A stretch of DNA of 27,067 nt, taken from positions 1 to 27,067 of IMG/VR virus record IMGVR_UViG_3300025921_000065; one strand, written 5' to 3'. Position 1 is the first letter of the stretch. Each line of letters opens with the position of its first letter. The notes beneath the pieces were generated by a model. It saw only the letters and a program-made list of their open reading frames with translations. It was not told the DNA's origin and did no database searches. Origin of the DNA: a virus. This document shows positions 7,955 to 26,799 of this stretch, one piece after another. The translations under genes were made by a program, and so were the position numbers.

Positions 7955-8929
7955 GTGGCACCGTTGCGGGTCCTCGCGATGGTGCACCTCTTCCCGCCCC
8001 GGCACTGCGCCGGCGCGGAGCTGATGCTGCTGTCGATGCTGCGGCCGCTCGCCGACCGTGGCCACACCGTCGACGTGCTGCTGTCACGGCCGACACCAGA
8101 CACCGGCCCGTACGACCTGCACGGCATCACCGTGCACCCGCACAAGGGCCGCAACGACCCCTGGCCCTTCGTCGAGAACGCCGACGTCGTCATCACCCAC
8201 CTGGAAAACACCGCCCGGGCCGGCGCGCTGTGCGCGATGGTCAAACGCCCGCTCGTCCAGGTGCTGCACAACACCCACCCGACCACCAAGACGTTCCTCA
8301 CCGGCTCGACCGCGCTCGCGGTGTTCAACAGCCAATGGATGGCAGACGACTTCGCCTACACCGGCCGGCAGCTCATCGTCCGGCCGCCGGTGTTCGCCGA
8401 GGAGTACCGCACCAAACCCGGCCGCGCGGTCACCCTGATCAACCTCAACGAGGCCAAAGGCGCGCACACGTTCTACGCGCTTGCCGAACGGCTACCTGAC
8501 GTCGAGTTCCTCGGCGTGGTCGGCGCCTACGGCGAGCAGCTCATCCGCACCGACCTGCCCAACGTCACCGTCCTCGAGCACGGCCAGGACATGCGCGCCG
8601 TCTACTCGCGCACCCGCGTGCTGCTGATGCCCTCGTCCTACGAGTCATGGGGCCGCGTCGGCGTCGAAGCGATGTGCTCCGGCATCCCGGTCATCGCCAA
8701 CCCGACACCCGGTCTGCGCGAAGCGCTCGGCGAGGCCGGCACCTTCGCCGACCGTGATGACATCGACAGCTGGCAGGCCGAGCTCAGCCGGCTGCTGCAG
8801 CCGACCGCATGGCGCGCCGCGTCCAAACGCGCCAAGACCCGCGCCGGCGAACTCGACCCGACCGTCGATCTGGACCGCTGGTGCGCCGCGATCGAATACC
8901 TAGCCCGAGGAGCGCGTCGTGTCGCTTGA
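7955..8929 (+). CDS. GT4-like glycosyltransferase in head operon
   Basis: The product (324 aa) has the two-Rossmann plan of a GT-B retaining glycosyltransferase. An N-terminal LRVLAMVHLFPP with CAGAELMLLSMLRPLADRGH binds the acceptor. The C-terminal half has NEAKGAHTF, a loop around LLMPSSYESWGRVGVEAM with the EX7E pair Glu230 and Glu238, and PVIANPTPGLREAL, which are the usual nucleotide-sugar contacts of family GT4. No signal peptide or membrane segment is seen, so it acts in the cytoplasm. GTG at 7955 is listed, but TTG at 7964 is better spaced from GGAGAGG and may be the true start. It lies directly behind the capsid gene and overlaps the connector gene by 11 bases, so capsid or tail glycosylation is the natural inference. 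Donor and target are unknown. Confidence 0.85.
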   Translation: MAPLRVLAMVHLFPPRHCAGAELMLLSMLRPLADRGHTVDVLLSRPTPDTGPYDLHGITVHPHKGRNDPWPFVENADVVITHLENTARAGALCAMVKRPLVQVLHNTHPTTKTFLTGSTALAVFNSQWMADDFAYTGRQLIVRPPVFAEEYRTKPGRAVTLINLNEAKGAHTFYALAERLPDVEFLGVVGAYGEQLIRTDLPNVTVLEHGQDMRAVYSRTRVLLMPSSYESWGRVGVEAMCSGIPVIANPTPGLREALGEAGTFADRDDIDSWQAELSRLLQPTAWRAASKRAKTRAGELDPTVDLDRWCAAIEYLARGARRVA

Positions 8930-10601: not shown

Positions 10602-10616
10602 TATTCCGCCGGAATA
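10602..10616. repeat. Palindrome copy 1 (TATTCCGCCGGAATA)
   Basis: A 15-bp inverted repeat with 7-bp arms and a single central base, located between the tail terminator and major tail genes, 51 bases upstream of the major tail ATG. The same core occurs at 22471, 23999 and 26301. It is A/T-rich for this operon. This is the only copy lying fully outside a coding region, so it could act as an operator, a transcript processing hairpin or a recombination site. Confidence 0.85.
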
Positions 10617-10666: not shown

Positions 10667-11251
10667 ATGACCACGCAGAACAAGAACATCCTCGCCGGCG
10701 TCGAAGCCGGCGGAACCGGCGGGTCCCTCGCCTGGTTCGCCCCCGAGGGCACCGCGCTCCCCACCAGCGTCGAGGACCTCCTCAACGAAGCGTTCCAGGA
10801 CGCCGGCTGGGTCACCAGCGACGGCCTGTCCGCGAAGAAGAACGTCTCCGCCAACGACATCAACGCCTACGGCACCACAGTGCCGGTACGGGTGTTGAAG
10901 ACGTCGGTCAAACGCACCTTCGGCCTGACCTTCCTCGAGTCCAACGCCACCTCGATCGCGGTGTACAACGAGCTCGCACTCGACGCCATCACCGTCGACC
11001 CGACCGACGGCTCGTTCTCCTTCCAGGAGGGCCCGCCCGCGACGCAGTACTACTCGGCCGTGTTCGACATCGTCGACGGCAACAACCACATCCGCGCCGT
11101 CTGCCCGATCGTGGAAAACACCACCCCGGGCGACTTCAACGCCAAGGCCGGCGAGGCGATCGGCTACCCGGTCGAGCTCACCGCCTACCCGGACACCAGC
11201 GGCTTCTCCGTCTACTGGTACTACCTCGTCGACGCGCTGAAGAGCGGCTGA
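10667..11251 (+). CDS. Major tail protein
   Basis: The 194-aa product builds the tail tube. It starts MTTQNKNILAGVEAGGTGGSLAWFAPEGTALPTS (in parts), typical of actinophage tube subunits, followed by a beta-sandwich with YGTTVPVRVLKTSVKRTFGLTFLES and GYPVELTAYPDTSGFSVYWYY. It lies just before the frameshifted tail chaperone genes, the hallmark position. ATG follows TTGAGAGGA. The C-terminus ends shortly after the last strand (DALKSG), so no Ig-like domain is fused. The upstream gap holds a palindrome copy. Confidence 0.9.
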   Translation: MTTQNKNILAGVEAGGTGGSLAWFAPEGTALPTSVEDLLNEAFQDAGWVTSDGLSAKKNVSANDINAYGTTVPVRVLKTSVKRTFGLTFLESNATSIAVYNELALDAITVDPTDGSFSFQEGPPATQYYSAVFDIVDGNNHIRAVCPIVENTTPGDFNAKAGEAIGYPVELTAYPDTSGFSVYWYYLVDALKSG

Positions 11252-15676: not shown

Positions 15677-17271
15677 CCGTGCCGGACCGGATCTTCGCCT
15701 CGGTCTGGACACCTGACCTCGCTACCTGCCTCGCCGTGCTGCCCGACCGGTGCAACCTGTCATGGCAGGACCCGCTGAACGGCTCCGGCCTGGGCTCGCT
15801 CGACGTCCCGTACGACGACCCGGCCGTCACCTACCTGCGTGACCGCAACATCGTCCGGTTCTGGTGGGCCGGTGATTACCGGTACGCGTTCCGGATCCAG
15901 AACCCGAAGAACGTCGCCGTCGACACCGACGGCGAGGTCGACCAGTGGCTGACCATCACCGGGCCAGGCGTGCAAGACGTCATCAACGACGCGATCCTGT
16001 TTCCCGAAGGCGGCTTCAACCGCGACGCCGGCGACCAACGCACCTTCAACTACTCCTCCGCCGCCGGCGATTGGTACGTCTCCAGCGAATGGGCCGCACC
16101 CGCCGGTGTCGCCTGGACAGCTGACACCACCGCACGCGCCGGCTACCCGAAAGGCTGGCCGGACAGCTCGGCCGAATGGATCTGGGACACCAACCCGGAC
16201 ACCGACGACACCGACCTGAAAGTCGTCTACTTCCGCGCCACCTTCACCCTCACCGCGAACTCGCCGGTCGCTATCTACGCCACCGCCGACAACTTCCTCG
16301 ACCTGTACCTCAACGGTCAACAGATCATCACCAGCGACCTGACCAACCCGCTCACCTGGCGGGCCGCGACCCCGTACAACGTCAACCTGCCGGCCGGCAC
16401 CTACCTGCTCGCCGCCCGCGTGCAGAACGCCGCCAAGGCATGGCCGACCCAGCAGAACCCGGCCGCGTTCCTGTGCACCGTCGCCACCACCAGCAGCGCC
16501 GGCGTCATCGACACGGTCGTGCTGCGCAGCGACACCACCAGCTGGCTGTGCCGCCCCGAAGGCACCACGCCGCCCGGCTGGCACGCGGCGCTCATCCTCA
16601 AGACATTCGTCGAAGAGGCGCAGGCGCGCAGCGTCACCGCCCTCGCTCCGCTGACGCTGGACTACACCTCAACCGACGACACCGCCGGCGTCGCGTGGAC
16701 CGACATCGTCGACACCGCCTACAACGTCGGCACCAAAGGCGCCGACCTCATCGAGAAGCTCACCGAACTCGGCATCGACGTACAGGTCGACGCCAACCTC
16801 GTGCTGCACGCCTGGACTCAACGCGGCACCGACCGGTCCACCGGCGCCAACCCGGTCGTGCTGCGCCCGGCGCTCAACCTCGACCAGCTCGAGCTCGACA
16901 CCGACCTCGGCATCACCACGCACCTGCTCGTTCGCACCCCCAATGGGTGGGTTGAGATCGCCGCCGCCAACGAAGCCACCGACGGCCGGGTCGAAGACCT
17001 TCTTTCCCTCGGCAACGCCGGCAGCGACGCGCAGGCCACCAGCCAAGCCGAAGCCGCGTTCACCGACATCGCCACGCCGACCACCACATTCACCGCGGCC
17101 TGCGTCCCGGTCGAGGGCGCAACACCCTACGTCGACTTCGACAACGGCGACACAGTCCTCGCACCCGACGGCACCGGCGGGGCGGCAGCGCTGCGCGTCA
17201 TGTCCATCAGCGTCAGCGAAGACGCGACCAGCGGCGCGATCAGTTTCGTCCCCGAGCTCTACGAGGCATGA
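15673..17271 (+). CDS. Tal-like minor tail protein with inserted beta-sandwich
   Basis: The 532-aa product follows by ATGA overlap and has the layout of actinophage base-of-tail proteins. It starts with a hub-like segment (CNLSWQDPLNGSGLGSLDVP, RNIVRFWWAGDYRYAFRI). Residues about 165-290 form an inserted domain with a sugar-binding look: AEWIWDTNPD, VVYFRATFTL, VAIYATADNFLDLYLNGQQI, YLLAARVQNAAKAW, which resembles galactose-binding or fibronectin-like sandwiches. The hub fold then resumes (LIEKLTELGIDVQVDANLVLHA) and ends with the usual FVPELYEA. It likely forms the tip hub and touches cell-surface glycans. Substrate unknown. Confidence 0.8.
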   Translation: MTVPDRIFASVWTPDLATCLAVLPDRCNLSWQDPLNGSGLGSLDVPYDDPAVTYLRDRNIVRFWWAGDYRYAFRIQNPKNVAVDTDGEVDQWLTITGPGVQDVINDAILFPEGGFNRDAGDQRTFNYSSAAGDWYVSSEWAAPAGVAWTADTTARAGYPKGWPDSSAEWIWDTNPDTDDTDLKVVYFRATFTLTANSPVAIYATADNFLDLYLNGQQIITSDLTNPLTWRAATPYNVNLPAGTYLLAARVQNAAKAWPTQQNPAAFLCTVATTSSAGVIDTVVLRSDTTSWLCRPEGTTPPGWHAALILKTFVEEAQARSVTALAPLTLDYTSTDDTAGVAWTDIVDTAYNVGTKGADLIEKLTELGIDVQVDANLVLHAWTQRGTDRSTGANPVVLRPALNLDQLELDTDLGITTHLLVRTPNGWVEIAAANEATDGRVEDLLSLGNAGSDAQATSQAEAAFTDIATPTTTFTAACVPVEGATPYVDFDNGDTVLAPDGTGGAAALRVMSISVSEDATSGAISFVPELYEA

Positions 17272-18296
17272 TGGCACGCAAACCGCCCCGCAGCCGCGAA
17301 CAAAGGCAGACCCGCTGGGCCCAGTCGATGACACCCGGCACCCTCGGCGGCCGCGTCGCGGCCGCCGCCCCGCTCAGCGTCGACATCACAAGACTCGCGG
17401 CCCGCATCCGCGGCGCCTCACTGCCACCCGGCGAGACCGGCTTCGACCCGAACGCCGACCCGATCATCATCGGCCAATTCGCGAGCGCGTCCGGCGGTGC
17501 GCGTGGCATCGCGATCGGTGTATCCGCGGAGGACAACGGGTCGGAAGCCATCGCCATCGGTTGGTTCTGCACAGCCGGTGGCGCTGACTCAGTCGCGCTC
17601 GGACCGAACTGTGAGACCTCTGCTATCGACGCGGTCGCTGTCGGGTCCGACGCGGGCGCCGATGGCGTGTCTTCCGTCGCCATTGGCGACCATGCCCGCG
17701 GTTGGGGTGATTACGGCGTCGCTATCGGTGCCCTCGCCGAAGCGACTACGGGTGTGTCGCAGGCGATCGCTATTGGTCGTATTGCTCGGGCTCTCGCCGA
17801 CGAAAGCATCGCGATCGGCCACGATGCGAAGGTCAATACTGGCGCGACCGGTGGAGTCGGCTTAGGTCAGGGTGCACTATCGCAAGGCGTCCAAGCCATC
17901 GCGATTGGGCAGACCTCCGTCGCATCCGCCGATTACACCGTCGCGATCGGTGAGGCAGGCGCAACTGCGCTACGGGCCACAGCAGTCGGCGATAGTTCGA
18001 CGGCTGCTGGCCAATTCTCCACAGCACTTGGGTATGGATCGGATGCCGAACCTGATTACGCCACTGCGATCGGCACGCATGCATTCGTCGCAACGGCGCA
18101 TACTCACTCCTCCGCGATAGGCGCAGACGCCGCGACCACCAAAGCCAATCAAGTCATGCTCGGCACAAGCAGCGACTTCGTTGAGATCCCCGGCAACGGC
18201 GCCACGAACGGCATTGTCTTCACGGACACCGCAACAAGCACCCGCTGCCTGATCCAGGTCACCTCAGGTGCCCTAGTGCTGAACGCCGCGCCGTGA
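17268..18296 (+). CDS. Tail fibre with YadA-like beta-roll repeats
   Basis: ATG at 17268, or 17271, overlaps the previous stop. Residues 1-70 are a basic, Pro-rich attachment region. Residues about 78-300 hold roughly fifteen degenerate 13-17-residue repeats each ending in [IVT]A[IVL]G, for example GIAIGVSA, SIAIGHDA, TAIGTHAF, the signature of the left-handed beta-roll heads of trimeric adhesins such as YadA. The C-terminus (QVMLGTSSDFVEIPG, CLIQVTSGALVLNAAP) resembles phage fibre ends. The repeat section uses noticeably more A/T-ending codons than its neighbours, suggesting separate ancestry. Probably a trimeric receptor-binding fibre. Confidence 0.8.
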   Translation: MMARKPPRSREQRQTRWAQSMTPGTLGGRVAAAAPLSVDITRLAARIRGASLPPGETGFDPNADPIIIGQFASASGGARGIAIGVSAEDNGSEAIAIGWFCTAGGADSVALGPNCETSAIDAVAVGSDAGADGVSSVAIGDHARGWGDYGVAIGALAEATTGVSQAIAIGRIARALADESIAIGHDAKVNTGATGGVGLGQGALSQGVQAIAIGQTSVASADYTVAIGEAGATALRATAVGDSSTAAGQFSTALGYGSDAEPDYATAIGTHAFVATAHTHSSAIGADAATTKANQVMLGTSSDFVEIPGNGATNGIVFTDTATSTRCLIQVTSGALVLNAAP

Positions 18297-22243: not shown

Positions 22244-22465
22244 CTAACCGGGATTCTGTTCGCCGAACAGCCGCACGAACGCGGCCCGCTCGTCGATGCT
22301 CGCTGCGTCCTTGGCGACCCGCACCCAGCGTTCCAGCTCGCGCATCGTCATCTGGCCGGACGCCGCTTTCGCTTCGACCTCGCGCATGGTGAGCCGGCCG
22401 AACGTGTCCGGCTCGGGCAACAGGTCGAGCAGCCGGAGCAGCAGGCGACGGAGCAGCTCAGCCAC
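22244..22465 (-). CDS. Hypothetical protein, 73 aa
   Basis: GTG at 22465 is chosen because it overlaps the previous gene by GTGGCTGA; earlier in-frame codons would translate the palindrome. The product is two or three charged helices (LLRRLLLRLLDLLPE, FGRLTMREVEAKAASGQM, MRELERWVRVAKDA), with Leu-rich N-terminus and acidic/basic alternation. No known motif. It is the last gene of a four-gene coupled minus-strand operon (23246 to 22244). The palindrome lies three bases before the start in transcription direction, so it may affect coupling. Function unknown. Confidence 0.6.
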   Translation of the reverse strand: MAELLRRLLLRLLDLLPEPDTFGRLTMREVEAKAASGQMTMRELERWVRVAKDAASIDERAAFVRLFGEQNPG

Positions 22466-22733
22466 CCGGATATTCCGCCGGAATATTCGGCAGCTTCGGC
22501 CGCTCATCGGAACGCTCCGGCCAATGCCAGGTACCGCCGCCGGGATGCTCACGGCCGTCGTACGACGTGGTCGGCTGGAAGAACAAGCCGGTCGGGTTCA
22601 GCACCGCCAGCCCGACCACGCCTTGGGTCTTGCCGACCTGGGTGACGATCGCGGCCCGGCACTCCTTGCCGAACTCCCCGCCCGGCGTGCCGTGCGACAC
22701 GTAGTGCACGACCCGCCCGACCGTCGGGGTCAC
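22458..22733 (-). CDS. Conserved actinophage-type hypothetical protein, 91 aa
   Basis: GTG at 22733 overlaps the upstream stop as GTGA. The sequence GRVVHYVSHGTPGGEFGKEC, then RAAIVTQVGKTQGVVGLAVLNPTGLFF and GGTWHWPERSDE, is a type often found as an orphan small gene in actinobacterial phages and prophages; this is recollection, not a search result. It appears to be a small beta-barrel (SH3-like). The normal ending seems to be near the WPERSDER region; the last residues KLPNIPAEYPGG come from the palindrome, so the C-terminus may be a later addition. Role unknown. Confidence 0.72.
   Translation of the reverse strand: MTPTVGRVVHYVSHGTPGGEFGKECRAAIVTQVGKTQGVVGLAVLNPTGLFFQPTTSYDGREHPGGGTWHWPERSDERPKLPNIPAEYPGG
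22471..22485. repeat. Palindrome copy 2 (TATTCCGCCGGAATA)
   Basis: The core is identical to copies 1 and 3. Here it lies within the last codons of the minus-strand gene ending at 22458, encoding the peptide end NIPAEYPGG, and just before the start of the next gene. Flanks extend the symmetry on one side (GGA to the left, TTCGG to the right). Confidence 0.85.
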
Positions 22734-22912
22734 CCCGCAACCACCGCGGCGGCCAGCTGCGCCGGGCCATCAAGCAGGACGACTTCCTCCGCGGCGCCGG
22801 TGTGCCGCTCGAGCACGACGCCGCCATCGTCGAAGATCCGCACCACCTGGTAGCGGTTACGGCTTTCCGGCCACTCGACGACGTCGCCTTCGCGCAGCGG
22901 CTGTTCAGCCAC
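22730..22912 (-). CDS. Hypothetical small beta protein, 60 aa
   Basis: GTG at 22912 overlaps the previous gene by GTGGCTGA. The product starts with LREGDVVEWPESRNRYQVVRI and continues FDDGGVVLERHTGAAEEVVLL, a short beta-barrel pattern of the KOW/SH3 kind. Longer upstream reading in the frame is Arg/Pro/Ser-rich shadow of the neighbouring gene and is rejected. Coupled both sides. Function unknown. Confidence 0.62.
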   Translation of the reverse strand: MAEQPLREGDVVEWPESRNRYQVVRIFDDGGVVLERHTGAAEEVVLLDGPAQLAAAVVAG

Positions 22913-23246
22913 GCGCCGCGGCCGTGAGCGCCGGCGTGACGACGTCGGTCCCGGCCCACGACGTCGGGATGCCCCAGCCTTGGCCGAGGGTGAGCTCGCA
23001 GTTGCGGGCGCCGGCGACCAGCGGCACTGCCGCCAGCACGTCACCGGCCTCTCCGAACAGGGCGAAGCCCTGCGCGTCCGGCACGTACGGCAGCTCGACC
23101 TGGTCGAGGAACTCGATCCGGCCGAGGTCCTCGTGCACCCGGTAGCGGACCGAATGCGTGATGTTGCCGATCACGTCGACGTCGCCGGGCGACGTCGCGT
23201 TCTTCCGCTGCTTGATCGGGCGGAGCGATCCCATCAGTTCGGTCAT
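22905..23246 (-). CDS. Hypothetical protein, 113 aa
   Basis: ATG at 23246 is preferred over TTG at 23267 because of a GGAAAG site about nine bases upstream and a natural MTELMGSLRPIKQRKN start. The beta-rich body (GDVDVIGNITHSVRYRVHED, LGRIEFLDQVELPYVP, AGARNCELTLGQGW) has no motif I recognise. First gene of the four-gene minus operon, starting only 29 bases from the divergent integrase start, so their promoters must lie inside or overlap the coding regions. Confidence 0.6.
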   Translation of the reverse strand: MTELMGSLRPIKQRKNATSPGDVDVIGNITHSVRYRVHEDLGRIEFLDQVELPYVPDAQGFALFGEAGDVLAAVPLVAGARNCELTLGQGWGIPTSWAGTDVVTPALTAAARG

Positions 23247-23275
23247 AAGCGGATCTTTCCACCGCAAAGGCGGAT

Positions 23276-24220
23276 ATGAACAGCAACGAGCTTGCGGTGC
23301 GCGCGTCGGCGCCTGTCGACCGCGCGGCCGGCCCGGTCATCAACTCACCGACGCAACTCGTCGCCGCGGCGTTCCTCGCCGGCTACACCGGCCGCACCCG
23401 CGAGGCCTACGACACCGACCTGCGCCAGTTCTTCGACTGGTGTGCATGCGTGCAGGTGGATCCGCTCGCGGCCGCCCGCATGCACGTGCAGGTCTACATC
23501 CGTGAGCTCGAGGAGCGCCTGGTCGCCTCGAGCATCGCCCGCAAGCTCTCCGCGCTGTCCGGCTTCTACTCCTACGCCGCGGCCGAGGACCTCATCAAGC
23601 GATCGCCGATGACCGGGCTGCGCCGACCCAAGGTGTCCGACGAGTCCCCGCGGTTCGGTCTCGACCGGCACGAGCTCGCCCGGCTGTTGGAAGTTGCCAA
23701 CACCCACAGCCCGGTCGCGTACGCGCTCGTGTGCCTGCTCGCGTTCAACGGGCTGCGCGTGTCCGAAGCGTGCAAGGCGACCGTCGCCGACCTGGCGGAG
23801 GAGCGCGGGCACCGGCTGCTCACGGTCACCCGAAAGGGTGGCAAGCGTGCAAGGATCCCGCTCGCGCCGCGCACCATCGAGGCGATCGCCGCGCTACCGT
23901 CCATGACTGACGTCGGCGCGTCTGCCCCCGTGGGCGCGTCGGCGTTGCTGTTCGGCATCGACCGGTTCGCCGCGTGGCGGCTGATCCGACGGCTCGCTTA
24001 TTCCGCCGGAATATCCAAGCCGATCTCGCCGCACTCGCTGCGCCACACGTACGTGACGCTCTCGCTGGACGCCGGCGTCGAGCTGCGCGACGTGCAAGAC
24101 GGCGCCGGGCACGCGGATCCGCGGACCACCCGCCGCTACGACCGCGGCCGCAACTCACTGGACCGCGCACCCACCTACCGGCTCGCCGCGTACGTCGACG
24201 TCGACGAGGACGTCGCCTGA
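23276..24220 (+). CDS. int: Tyrosine integrase (XerC/D-like)
   Basis: The 314-aa site-specific recombinase would insert and excise the phage genome. The N-terminal core-binding (SAM-like) domain spans about 24-105 (LAGYTGRTREAYDTDLRQFF, SIARKLSALSGFYSY). The catalytic domain has all expected residues: Arg161 (NGLRVSEAC), Lys187 (VTRKGGKRARI), His253 and Arg256 (PHSLRHTYVT), His279 (GAGHADPRTT) and nucleophile Tyr288 (RRYD). There is no arm-binding domain, so it resembles Xer-type more than lambda Int. ATG follows AAAGGCGG. Codons 242-246 (YSAGI) are formed exactly by palindrome copy 3. No excisionase is recognised nearby. Confidence 0.93.
   Translation: MNSNELAVRASAPVDRAAGPVINSPTQLVAAAFLAGYTGRTREAYDTDLRQFFDWCACVQVDPLAAARMHVQVYIRELEERLVASSIARKLSALSGFYSYAAAEDLIKRSPMTGLRRPKVSDESPRFGLDRHELARLLEVANTHSPVAYALVCLLAFNGLRVSEACKATVADLAEERGHRLLTVTRKGGKRARIPLAPRTIEAIAALPSMTDVGASAPVGASALLFGIDRFAAWRLIRRLAYSAGISKPISPHSLRHTYVTLSLDAGVELRDVQDGAGHADPRTTRRYDRGRNSLDRAPTYRLAAYVDVDEDVA
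23999..24013. repeat. Palindrome copy 3, inside integrase
   Basis: TATTCCGCCGGAATA occupies codons 242-246 of the integrase in phase, encoding Tyr-Ser-Ala-Gly-Ile just before the HxxR catalytic motif. Such a position matches a natural Ala-Gly-Ile turn in the family, so the site may be coincident with protein constraint or a functional site embedded in coding DNA. Confidence 0.85.
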
Positions 24221-24260
24221 GCCGTGGGTTCAGTCTTTTCTAAACCTCTTTTGAAACCGT

Positions 24261-24290
24261 CAGCCCCTCACCCTCGTGGGTGAGGGGCTG
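24261..24290. terminator. Strong bidirectional terminator hairpin
   Basis: CAGCCCCTCACCC (24261-24273) pairs with GGGTGAGGGGCTG (24278-24290) around TCGT, a perfect 13-bp stem. The plus side is followed by ATATTGCGTTTTGGG, the minus side by ACGGTTTCAAAAGAGG. It separates the converging integrase gene and the minus-strand gene ending at 24307. Confidence 0.9.
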
Positions 24291-24306
24291 ATATTGCGTT
24301 TTGGGT

Positions 24307-24654
24307 TCAGCGACGGGCGGCCGGCACTGCCATCGGCACGACCAACCCGGGGCCCGTCATATGCCGCTGCGGGAGGGTCTCCGCCTGCTGCTGCTCGAGC
24401 GTCTCGTTAAGCCGGCGGGTCGCGTCGGCGAGCGCGAAGGTGCCCAGCGCCTGACCGAGCGCGATCGCGCGGTCCACATTGTTCGACGGGCCGGTGCGTT
24501 GCGACAGGGTGCGATGCGCGGTGAGCAGCAGGGAGCCGGCGAGTGCGAGCGGGTCAACGCCGCTGACGTTCTCGTGCTCTGCCTTTGGTTCCTGTTGGTC
24601 GTCGACGATGGCGATCGCCTCGTCGTCGACGACGGGCGTTGCGGTCTCGCTCAA
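24307..24654 (-). CDS. Hypothetical protein, 115 aa
   Basis: TTG at 24654 follows AGAAGGAGAGCTG, the best ribosome site on this strand, and is preferred to an ATG at 24714, which would add 20 residues upstream of that site. Residues 1-40 are acidic and disordered (VVDDEAIAIVDDQQEPKAEH); 42-95 form helices (LALAGSLLLTAHRTLSQRTG, AIALGQALGTFALADATRRL); the end is Pro/Ala-rich. It converges on the integrase terminator. No motif suggests repressor or excisionase function. Possibly the last gene of the leftward early operon before the IS remnant entered. Confidence 0.6.
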   Translation of the reverse strand: MSETATPVVDDEAIAIVDDQQEPKAEHENVSGVDPLALAGSLLLTAHRTLSQRTGPSNNVDRAIALGQALGTFALADATRRLNETLEQQQAETLPQRHMTGPGLVVPMAVPAARR

Positions 24655-24770
24655 CAGCTCTCCTTCTTGAAACAAAGTTTCGTTGTTACATGCCACGGCC
24701 GAGTGTCGGCGCACCGAGCGCGCGGAGTCCGGCGGCTAGCTGTAGTACTTCATGACGTTGGTGACACGGG

Positions 24771-25193
24771 TCACCGTCCATCCAGCTCGTCGAAGATGGT
24801 GAGCTGGTCGTCCGTCACCTCGGGCCATTCCTCCACCTCCTGCGGCTCGACCTTCGGACCCACGGCGGGCACTCGGGTGATGGGCGGGAGCCAGCCGAGG
24901 GCTGAGTGCTTCCGCTCGAAGTTGTAGTAGTTGAGGAACTCGGCGAGCGCCTGCGTTCGATCCTGCTCCGAGTCGTAGGGCCGGCGGCGCAGCCACTCCG
25001 CGAGCATCGTCTGGTTGTACCGCTCGACCTTGCCGTTCGTGCGCGGCGTGTAGGGACGGGTCCGCTTGTGCCGGGTGCCGGTCTTGGTCAGCGCCTCGGC
25101 GAACGCTCGGGAGCGGTAGGGCGAGCCGTTGTCGGTCAGCACCCGGATGAACCGGTATGGCGTCCCTCGCCGGTGCTTGCCCGCGTACCTCAT
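24771..25193 (-). pseudogene. IS481-type transposase remnant (C-terminal part)
   Basis: The 140-aa frame starts with ATGA overlap at the end of the zinc-ribbon gene (MRYAGKHRRG) and runs into a rve-type integrase core: FIRVLTDNGSPYRSRAFAEA holds the second catalytic Asp, RPYTPRTNGKVERYNQTMLA the Glu, then LAEFLNYYNFERKHSALGWLPPITRV. The whole N-terminal half, including the helix-turn-helix and first Asp, is missing, so it cannot be active. After PPITRV the frame continues into unrelated acidic sequence (EVEEWPEVTDDQLTIFDELD). An expected closing TRVTNVMKYYS appears in another frame at 24736-24770, as though about 100 bases had been inserted. The first ten residues may belong to a phage gene cut by the element. 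Confidence 0.75.
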
Positions 25194-26110
25194 CCGGCCT
25201 CGGTCCACCGCGACAGCTGCTCGTCGCTGAGCCGGCCGCGGCCGCGGACGTCGGGCTCGTCGACTTCGACCCAACGCTCTTCGCCGGCGAGTTCTTCGAA
25301 TTGGAACCGCCAGCACCTGCGGGTGCCGTCGCCCCGGCGGCAGTCCGGGTTGCGGCACACCGCCCGGTCCTCGTCGGCGACGACGGTCTGCTGGTAGCAG
25401 TACATGCATTCGTTGACCGACGCGGTGAACCGGTTGCCGAGCACCATCGCCGCCGCCCGGCCGAGCAGACGCAGCGCTTCGCTGCGCACGGTCTCGGCGA
25501 GCATCGGCGCCTCATCGACGAGCTGGTCGGCGTGCAGCGCAAGGAACGCGAGCGTGTCGAGGACACCGTCGTCGATGCCGAGACCCTCCGCCGTCGGCCT
25601 GGGTCGTGGCGTTAGGCGGAGGGCCCGGCAGACGGAACGCTCCAGCCCGCGGAGCGTCACGACGAACCCGGGCCGATAGTTGTCCGGGTCGTCCAGTGTG
25701 GTCTCCGACGGCGCGAACTCGCTGGCCCAGTACCGGCCGGTCAGGAAGTCCAGCGCCAGCAGGTCGATCGGCACGGCGATGCCGCCGCCACCGCCGCTGC
25801 GGCCCTTCGTCGTACGGGTGCCGACGAGCTCGAGCAGATGCGGGTAGAACCAGGCGAGGCCGTGACGGTCCCAGTCCGGGTCGCACCACCAGGCGTCCTG
25901 TTGTGGCGCGAGCGCGGCCGCGCGGCGCTGCTCGAGCGTCAGCCTGGCGCCGGCCGTGCCGACCGGGCGTTCGCAGGCGCGGGTGTCCATCGGGTCGCGG
26001 CCGTTACGGCCGTCGGCGTGGTTGGCCGTGAGCAGCCGACGGAGCATCTCGCCGGGGGACGGTGGATCCGCTACCGCCCGCAACGTCAAATCGAACGCCT
26101 CCCCGCACAC
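25190..26110 (-). CDS. Zinc-ribbon conserved phage protein
   Basis: The 306-aa product from GTG at 26110 (ATG at 26047 is an alternative, after GGCGAG) resembles a phage protein with RACERPVG, a QQDAWWCDPDWDRHGLAWFYPHLLEL stretch (in parts), a low-complexity GRSGGGGG linker, and LLALDFLTGRYWASEF. The C-terminal third has a zinc ribbon: CMYC and, 15 residues later, CRNPDC, then RRCWRFQFEEL. Such genes are found in early regions of actinophages; the function is not established to my knowledge. The stop overlaps the transposase remnant start, which suggests the element entered just behind this gene without breaking its main body. Confidence 0.7.
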   Translation of the reverse strand: MCGEAFDLTLRAVADPPSPGEMLRRLLTANHADGRNGRDPMDTRACERPVGTAGARLTLEQRRAAALAPQQDAWWCDPDWDRHGLAWFYPHLLELVGTRTTKGRSGGGGGIAVPIDLLALDFLTGRYWASEFAPSETTLDDPDNYRPGFVVTLRGLERSVCRALRLTPRPRPTAEGLGIDDGVLDTLAFLALHADQLVDEAPMLAETVRSEALRLLGRAAAMVLGNRFTASVNECMYCYQQTVVADEDRAVCRNPDCRRGDGTRRCWRFQFEELAGEERWVEVDEPDVRGRGRLSDEQLSRWTEAG

Positions 26111-26281
26111 GTCTGTCTGAGCGCTTGGTGCTGCAGCTCCGACCCGAGTGCGGCTCCGTCACCTTGCCACGGTGATCGGCAGGAACCGGCCAACCAGCAA
26201 GCAAGATCCCTAAAAGGGACTAACCGTTCCGACCGATCGAACGACGGCGGCCGCGACAACGGCACGCACACCACGTCGGTG
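26111..26281. promoter_or_regulatory. Intergenic region with two inverted repeats
   Basis: Upstream of the zinc-ribbon gene (minus strand) and downstream of the gene ending at 26282. TCCCT-AAA-AGGGA lies at 26207-26219 and CGTTC-9 bases-GAACG at 26225-26243. The sequence is less G/C-rich around CAAGATCCCTAAAAGG. It may hold a promoter and operator for the leftward operon, but no clear -10/-35 pair is visible. Confidence 0.35.
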
Positions 26282-26500
26282 TCACGGCGCTGGCTCCGGA
26301 TATTCCGACGGAATAGCCGGCGCTGGCGGTTCGGCTTCGATGATGTCGACGTCCAGGTTCCACCCGTCACCGCGGGCGATCGCGGCCGCTTCCAACGCGT
26401 CGGTGATCGCGTTGCAGATCTCTTCGGCCTCCTCCAGGTCGCCATAGGTGGAGGTGACGATCCAGTACCGCGCGCCGTTGCGGCGGGTGCCGGCGCTCAC
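26282..26500 (-). CDS. Hypothetical protein, 72 aa
   Basis: GTG at 26500 overlaps the upstream stop (GTGA), so the longer upstream reading is rejected as shadow. The product reads ARYWIVTSTYGDLEEAEEIC, NAITDALEAAAIARGDGWNL, DVDIIEAEPPAPA: a small alpha/beta fold with one amphipathic helix. The end AIPSEYPEPAP is made by palindrome copy 4, like the end of the 22458 gene. Function unknown. Confidence 0.6.
   Translation of the reverse strand: MSAGTRRNGARYWIVTSTYGDLEEAEEICNAITDALEAAAIARGDGWNLDVDIIEAEPPAPAIPSEYPEPAP
26301..26315. repeat. Palindrome copy 4 (TATTCCGACGGAATA)
   Basis: Same arms as the other three copies with A instead of C at the centre, so both arms stay perfectly paired. It lies in the last codons of the minus-strand gene ending at 26282 and encodes IPSEYP. 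The flanks GGA and GCCGG extend partial symmetry. Confidence 0.85.
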
Positions 26501-26799
26501 TTCGCTGCCTCGAGCCGACCGCCGCCGGGGCGACGACGGAACTTGGTCGGCCAGCGGCCCCACATGGTGAAGTCGACGTCGTCGCCGTACGCCTGGTACC
26601 ACAGCGGGGTCTCGCTGCTGGCGCGCAGCGTGATGATGGCCGGAACCGGGTCGAGGCAGCCGGGCCAGGAGTCCCGTTTGCGGCTGGCGCCCATCTTGGT
26701 GATGAAGTCGACGTGCCGGCATGGGCCGCCGGTGGAGATGGTGACGGCCGTGTCGCGGGGCAGCATCGCGAGGATCTCCTCGAGCTCGCCGACGGTCAC
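26497..26799 (-). CDS. Hypothetical protein, 100 aa
   Basis: GTG at 26799 overlaps the upstream gene (GTGA). The N-terminus MTVGELEEILAMLPRDTAVT is a pattern of small phage proteins of unknown role (a helix, then a strand with VxIxxGG). Middle part has CRHVDFITKMG and LDPVPAIITLRASSETP; the end is basic (KFRRRPGGGR). A membrane segment or catalytic motif is absent. Confidence 0.62.
   Translation of the reverse strand: MTVGELEEILAMLPRDTAVTISTGGPCRHVDFITKMGASRKRDSWPGCLDPVPAIITLRASSETPLWYQAYGDDVDFTMWGRWPTKFRRRPGGGRLEAAK

Follow-up and report, generated by a model that had tools for sequence, protein, structure and literature searches.

The stretch of DNA analysed here, a 27,067-base virus record (IMGVR_UViG_3300025921_000065 of the IMG/VR database; hereafter the window, at its full length), has a gene order typical of tailed phages and contains four exact copies of a perfect 15-bp palindrome, TATTCCGNCGGAATA, beginning at positions 10602, 22471, 23999 and 26301. 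The completeness of the record is unstated, and the window is taken here as a fragment of a soil phage. It holds, in order, terminase, portal, capsid, tail tube and lysin genes, small minus-strand genes, a tyrosine integrase and more minus-strand genes. The four boxes are spread over 15.7 kb of the phage and have about 18 bases in common, with differing flanks. Base composition would predict 1.5e-5 occurrences of the whole 15-mer; for its 13-base core with one mismatch allowed, 0.03 occurrences are expected by chance, and four were reached in none of 100 shuffles. The copies and the genes that hold or adjoin them are the following:

10602..10616: copy 1, TATTCCGCCGGAATA, intergenic, in an 83-base gap upstream of the tail-tube gene
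10667-11251: tail-tube gene (Phage_TTP_17, E 2.1e-10)
22244..22465, minus strand: small gene with a probable GTG start (22465) that overlaps the end of gene 22458-22733
22458..22733, minus strand: gene of a 91-residue protein, a relative of PHROG 2293 (E 1.5e-27) with a 14-residue extension past WHWPERSDE
22471..22485: copy 2, TATTCCGCCGGAATA on the plus strand, coding for NIPAEYP at the end of the minus-strand gene 22458-22733 and lying 5 bases upstream of the probable GTG start of the next gene
23276..24220, plus strand: tyrosine integrase gene (Phage_integrase, E 2.4e-21), carrying copy 3
23999..24013: copy 3, within the integrase gene, over the codons TAT TCC GCC GGA ATA (YSAGI)
26282..26500, minus strand: gene of a 72-residue protein ending in AIPSEYPEPAP
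26301..26315: copy 4, TATTCCGACGGAATA, coding for AIPSEYP at the end of the minus-strand gene 26282-26500

A preliminary description of this DNA had proposed that copies 2 and 4, sitting in the same phase, write the C-termini of two otherwise unrelated small proteins, and both parts of this claim hold. On the minus strand, the gene 22458-22733 ends CCG AAT ATT CCG GCG GAA TAT CCG GGT GGC TGA (PNIPAEYPGG and stop), and the gene 26282-26500 ends GCT ATT CCG TCG GAA TAT CCG GAG CCA GCG CCG TGA (AIPSEYPEPAP and stop); BLASTP aligns the two proteins over the 12-residue tail alone, with 7/12 identities and an E of 0.005. The shared phase is weak evidence by itself, at 1 in 3, and copy 3 is read in another phase (YSAGIS) in the middle of its gene.

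The same description regarded the first protein as complete before its tail, a view that the homologues bear out. Among 80 of the 322 confirmed IMG/VR loci of the 91-residue protein, with each frame read to its stop, 75 homologues end 3-7 residues after WHWP, against 19 residues here, and the remaining five have longer tails without IPxEYP. The peptide is absent from all 80, whether written with the same or with any other codons, nor was an IPxEYP-like peptide found past the stop in the homologue alignments. The box was likewise found at the end of this gene in none of the 80 loci, one of which alone (L172) has its 11-base core, at a distant place. Moreover, five residues, RPKLP, separate WHWPERSDE from NIPAEYP, which indicates that the stop was lost upstream of the box; the predicted frame now continues across the box and ends at a stop that overlaps the start region of the next gene.

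Of the two explanations offered at the outset for this placement, the insertion of a palindrome at gene ends does not stand as a rule: copy 1 is intergenic, copy 3 has a mid-gene position in the integrase, where it covers conserved residues, only some 18 bases are shared between copies, and RPKLP precedes NIPAEYP. Insertion restricted to gene ends was thus rejected on copies 1 and 3. The other, selection keeping a site where it is tolerated, fits the placement of the copies. In three Arthrobacter phage homologues of the integrase, the conserved AGI is written GCA GGG ATC or GC(T/C) GGC ATC, and in the window GCC GGA ATA, with two rare codons (GGA makes up 4.8% of glycine codons and ATA 1.4% of isoleucine codons); copy 2 likewise uses AAT (4%), ATT (3.3%) and TAT (10.8%). 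Because copy 3 overlays these conserved residues in another phase and with rare codons, what is kept is the DNA, the peptide being incidental. Selection for IPxEYP at the protein level was rejected on the 80 homologues without it and on the rare codons at the sites.

TCC follows each of the four copies on the transcribed strand (TATTCCGNCGGAATATCC), which gives them one orientation relative to transcription, for which the chance is 1 in 8. With this conserved TCC the box also takes part in a further palindrome, imperfect and overlapping the first (GGAATATCC), which arises on one of its sides only. An RNA hairpin or terminator was considered and rejected by eye, the stem having 6 bp and the loop 3 bases, without a run of T.

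Evidence on the nature of the box comes from actinobacterial replicons. A scan of a genome collection for GGATATTCCGNCGGAATA gave 87 stretches. Among the loci then collected, palindromes repeated at least four times occurred, besides the window, in Streptomyces mexicanus and S. paradoxus only (three loci with runs of N and one A/T tract having been set aside). In S. mexicanus, five copies flank a parB-parA pair whose products match HTH_ParB (E 7.5e-13) and ParB_N (E 3.2e-7), and AAA_31 (E 2e-17); in S. paradoxus, four exact boxes and one with a single mismatch lie at parB-parA. The plasmids NZ_CP013744 and NZ_CP108729 have exactly five boxes each, all at parB-parA and none elsewhere in the plasmid, with ParBs 78% and 85% identical, respectively. 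In Kitasatospora humi, four boxes surround the genes of a ParA (67%) and a ParB (50% across the 219 N-terminal residues). A Propionibacteriaceae bin carries three boxes, of which two lie no more than 2 kb upstream of the gene of a more distant ParB (33% across 182 residues, HTH_ParB E 2e-13; adjoining ParA, AAA_31 E 4e-28) and one lies elsewhere. The box is therefore found at predicted parAB operons, with ParB and ParA confirmed by Pfam. Box and protein thus remain associated although the ParBs have diverged, five of the six having 29-83% identity to the remaining one; in the plasmids the box is most simply read as parS.

Counts of the 15-mer alone, irrespective of parB and in sets that include the genomes that prompted the search, agree with its scarcity: it occurs in 8 of 392 Streptomyces genomes, more than once in S. 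mexicanus only, and in 2 of 391 genomes of the bin's order, more than once in the bin only, while a backward control was present in 10 and 3 genomes of the two sets and never twice in one. Single boxes in Dactylosporangium, Nocardioides and Pimelobacter had no match to these ParA and ParB proteins in the 9-16 kb read, and the single-copy matches in G004, G005, G007 and the IMG/VR stretches are treated as chance. A further contig of K. humi (C71; L331:6384, L332:6260), distinct from the one with parAB, has two more exact boxes, separated by 40 kb; dispersed copies may occur in the plasmid-type replicon as well, provided that it comprises both contigs.

These observations lead us to propose, with a probability of roughly 0.65, that the palindrome is the recognition (loading) site of a ParB-family helix-turn-helix (HTH) protein, comparable to plasmid parS and to the KorB operators of RK2; it is probably a docking site of a ParB-type clamp rather than a protein-coding feature. 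ParB-family proteins are clamps dependent on cytidine triphosphate, and KorB loads in this way and silences at a distance (PMC11790492), from operators that can be scattered (PMC5016525). In the phage, a ParB dimer would read the two TATTCCG half-sites, load at the box as a clamp and spread to either side. Since its sites lie in late genes, in the integrase gene and in the right arm, it would end up covering the genome of the phage. This would most likely silence or organise the prophage in the manner of KorB, and plasmid-style partition ranks second; the former is favoured by the dispersion of the sites, by the integrase and by the absence of ParA from the analogous phages described below. 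The sites would have been placed where sequence is cheap, namely a gap, two C-termini at gene ends and an integrase stretch that can be written with rare codons, and the peptide tails would be their by-products. That ParB binds the box, loads there as a clamp and silences the phage, and that a parB gene lies outside the fragment, are all what we infer from DNA letters.

Phages that do encode ParB-family proteins offer a parallel. A ParB-profile scan of IMG/VR gave ten loci, which were examined together with four annotated phages (14 stretches). Four of the former (G789, G790, G791 and G792) and the cultured phage VarioGold (OP296522) combine HTH_ParB genes with 6-10 dispersed palindromes of their own sequence. 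In G790 the palindrome is odd-centred, GCGAACCNGGTTCGC, with six exact copies and four with one mismatch over 1.6-38.3 kb, and in G789 also odd-centred, TTACTANTAGTAA, with six copies over 44.5-74 kb. G791 and G792, whose DNA is distantly similar (66-72% over short pieces), share the even-centred TATTTCCNNGGAAATA, with eight exact copies in the first, and seven exact copies and two with one mismatch in the second. VarioGold has three exact and three one-mismatch copies of GTGCAGANNTCTGCAC, one of them inside the ParB gene. In four of the phages a copy lies 18-280 bases upstream of a parB, as measured from predicted starts of open reading frames: 22 bases before one of the two parB genes of G791, 234 bases in G789, 279 bases in G790, and 18 bases before an in-frame ATG of one of the two parBs of G792, the program-made start of which is further up. 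ParA (AAA_31, PF13614) was not found in any of the five; a tyrosine integrase is present in G790 and VarioGold, and none was found in G789, G791 and G792. VarioGold is reported to have its attachment site in a tRNA-Ser gene and to encode a ParB-domain protein (PMC9658991), and neither 'palindrom' nor 'inverted repeat' nor 'pars' turned up in a word search of the text available from that paper.

When palindromes with arms of 7 were counted and copies had to be 1 kb or more from each other, two or more copies were found in 6 of the 14 stretches and in 3 of 150 controls, which were taken irrespective of ParB content and include one piece of the window's own phage (L070). Fisher's test on 4/10 against 3/150 gives 2.5e-4, a contrast inflated by a criterion fixed after L352 and L355 had been seen and by the greater average length of the ParB stretches. 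We tentatively suggest, at rather less than even odds, a class of temperate phages in unrelated hosts in which an orphan ParB clamp without ParA, together with at least 6-10 dispersed perfect palindromes, one of them at a parB, marks, silences or organises the genome; the window's phage would be a member with its boxes squeezed into gene tails and integrase, and with a box specificity common to actinobacterial plasmid ParABS, so that phage and plasmid could each disturb the other.

Several results weigh against the ParB-site interpretation. Nothing in the window matches ParB_N, and tblastn with these ParA and ParB proteins found no match there at E 1 or better. Among 65 stretches of IMG/VR contigs, each with one 15-mer, no viral contig with both box and ParB was found, the best ParB match covering 32 residues at E 0.037. 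The plasmids have their sites clustered at parAB and the phage has them scattered, and a 7-base half-site common to unrelated systems could be a coincidence (16,384 half-sites exist), to which we would give, at a guess, a few percent. The parallel is also incomplete. Gordonia phages Bowser and Ewald and Faecalibacterium phage FP_Taranis (50 of its 54 kb) have ParB-like genes and no dispersed family of at least three copies, and 6 of the 10 IMG/VR ParB loci have no dispersed palindrome family. By the arm-7 count, nothing was found in L351, L353, L354, L356, L359, L360, L375 (Ewald) and L376 (FP_Taranis); the repeats of L351 and L359 are clustered, not dispersed; and the pairs that this count detects in L355, whose family has arms of 6, and in Bowser are not the families discussed. 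Another count (at least three copies, arms of 6) gives 2/10 against 5/150, with p 0.06, and the second parB of G791 and G792 has no copy at its start in the stretches read. The half-site spacing varies between phages, and the pattern is not universal.

The S. mexicanus ParB as a single-sequence query found no relatives in IMG/VR, and a contig with the metagenome number of L070 and similar flanks (L057) was rejected as a different phage, with its box within a coding region.

A different protein could read the same sites. They may be operators or stoperators of a classical phage immunity repressor, an HTH dimer unrelated to ParB, which would stop prophage transcription as in the Cluster A mycobacteriophages. 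SP-beta of Bacillus is another prophage with dispersed sites. An odd-centred palindrome suits a dimeric repressor, and both the dispersion in late genes and right arm and the single orientation conferred by TCC on the four copies recall the 20-30 transcription-oriented sites of Cluster A phages (PMC6550527). Those sites, however, are 13-14 bp long, lack dyad symmetry and are bound by a monomer (PMC6550527), whereas the box is a perfect palindrome, and a repressor would leave its identity to the boxes at parAB operons unexplained; we consider this explanation unlikely. The identity itself, together with the lack of ParA and ParB matches in the window, would suit parS mimics, through which a phage without ParB would exploit or upset the ParABS of an actinobacterial plasmid in the same cell. 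SGI1 acts on IncC plasmids in this way: it has two parS-like sequences to which the plasmid-encoded ParB binds, and these make SGI1 more stable and the plasmid less so (PMC10954446). However, two copies suffice for SGI1 and the phage, with four dispersed ones, has more than it would need, part of its genome lies outside the window, and the five other phages with dispersed palindromes do encode ParB, so that mimicry appears less probable still than a repressor.

By far the least probable is a small mobile palindromic element that inserted at gene ends without any binding protein of the phage. REP-like and Rickettsia palindromic elements are models for it, and the absence of the tail from 80 of 80 homologues of the 91-residue protein would be expected. 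Nevertheless, the copies share only their 18 or so bases between differing flanks, copy 3 overlays conserved integrase residues, and the IMG/VR stretches with the 15-mer hold single copies.

Among the other genes of the window, the portal matches SPP1_portal (E 2.4e-34), the capsid Phage_capsid (E 5.4e-22), and the terminase shares 46% identity with its counterpart in Streptomyces phage VWB. L070 and another shorter IMG/VR contig, L019, are identical to parts of the window and are pieces of its own phage. The 20 best phage records listed for the integrase are from Arthrobacter phages, at 44-45% identity, and no relatives were confirmed in IMG/VR. No homologue of the 26282 protein was found in phages or IMG/VR, and no family above threshold when it was searched as a longer open reading frame of 146 residues; its program-made start at 26722 is probably too early, a GTG at 26500 overlapping the upstream stop. 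Profile searches with the longer frame 22244-22552 matched no family, and a search for relatives of the right-most protein found none. Elsewhere, a group 1 glycosyltransferase gene (7955-8929, plus strand, Pfam E 3e-15) lies between the capsid gene and the next structural genes, and a plus-strand protein after the tail genes (17268-18296) has five YadA-head repeats (E 2.5e-24). A transposase remnant (24771-25409, minus strand; integrase core rve_3, E 6.5e-18) runs into the gene 25190-26110, which it may truncate.

In the open literature, closed journals and supplements lying outside the search, the texts available described neither this box nor any integrating phages that combine ParB with dispersed palindromes. 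A survey of ParB folds across phages discusses domain fusions and nucleotides, with dispersed sites not mentioned in the part available (PMC12704722), and ParB-like proteins of phages have been proposed to direct the modification or packaging of DNA (PMC6536676). If the ParB-site interpretation is correct, the ParB-like genes of temperate phages would acquire a testable role, a plasmid centromere sequence would be dispersed through a phage genome, and cross-talk between phage and Streptomyces plasmids (immunity, incompatibility, hitch-hiking) would be predicted. Annotators would also be warned that C-terminal tails can be by-products of DNA-binding sites.

Known systems resemble the four boxes in different respects. 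The IR1-4 centromere sites of N15 lie apart in the phage genome. They too are four palindromic sites in a phage, bound in that case by ParB (SopB; PMC7205306), although the N15 prophage is a linear plasmid and the window's phage has a tyrosine integrase. The stoperators of Cluster A are likewise dispersed in a phage genome with one orientation relative to transcription, but are asymmetric and bound by a monomeric repressor (PMC6550527). They number 20-30 in those phages, and the 27 kb of the window hold four copies of the box. SGI1 is, like this phage would be, a mobile element with the parS sequence of another replicon (PMC10954446), although it has two copies and hijacking is demonstrated for SGI1 only. 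The RK2 operators O_B are also odd-centred palindromes scattered over a replicon and serve a ParB-family clamp in long-range silencing (PMC11790492, PMC5016525); their sequence is another, and binding is demonstrated for KorB and predicted for the box. In SCP1, parS1 is a 13-bp inverted repeat with three identical copies around parAB1, one of them within parB1 (PMC13245405). The box shares with parABS1 the short inverted repeat in several identical copies, a likeness that concerns the arrangement as described there, whereas the phage copies are spread along 15.7 kb and the 27 kb of the fragment yielded no parAB. A close counterpart is the parS of Streptomyces plasmids with HTH-type ParB, since the box is identical, letter for letter, at the parAB of S. 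mexicanus, S. paradoxus and the two plasmids.

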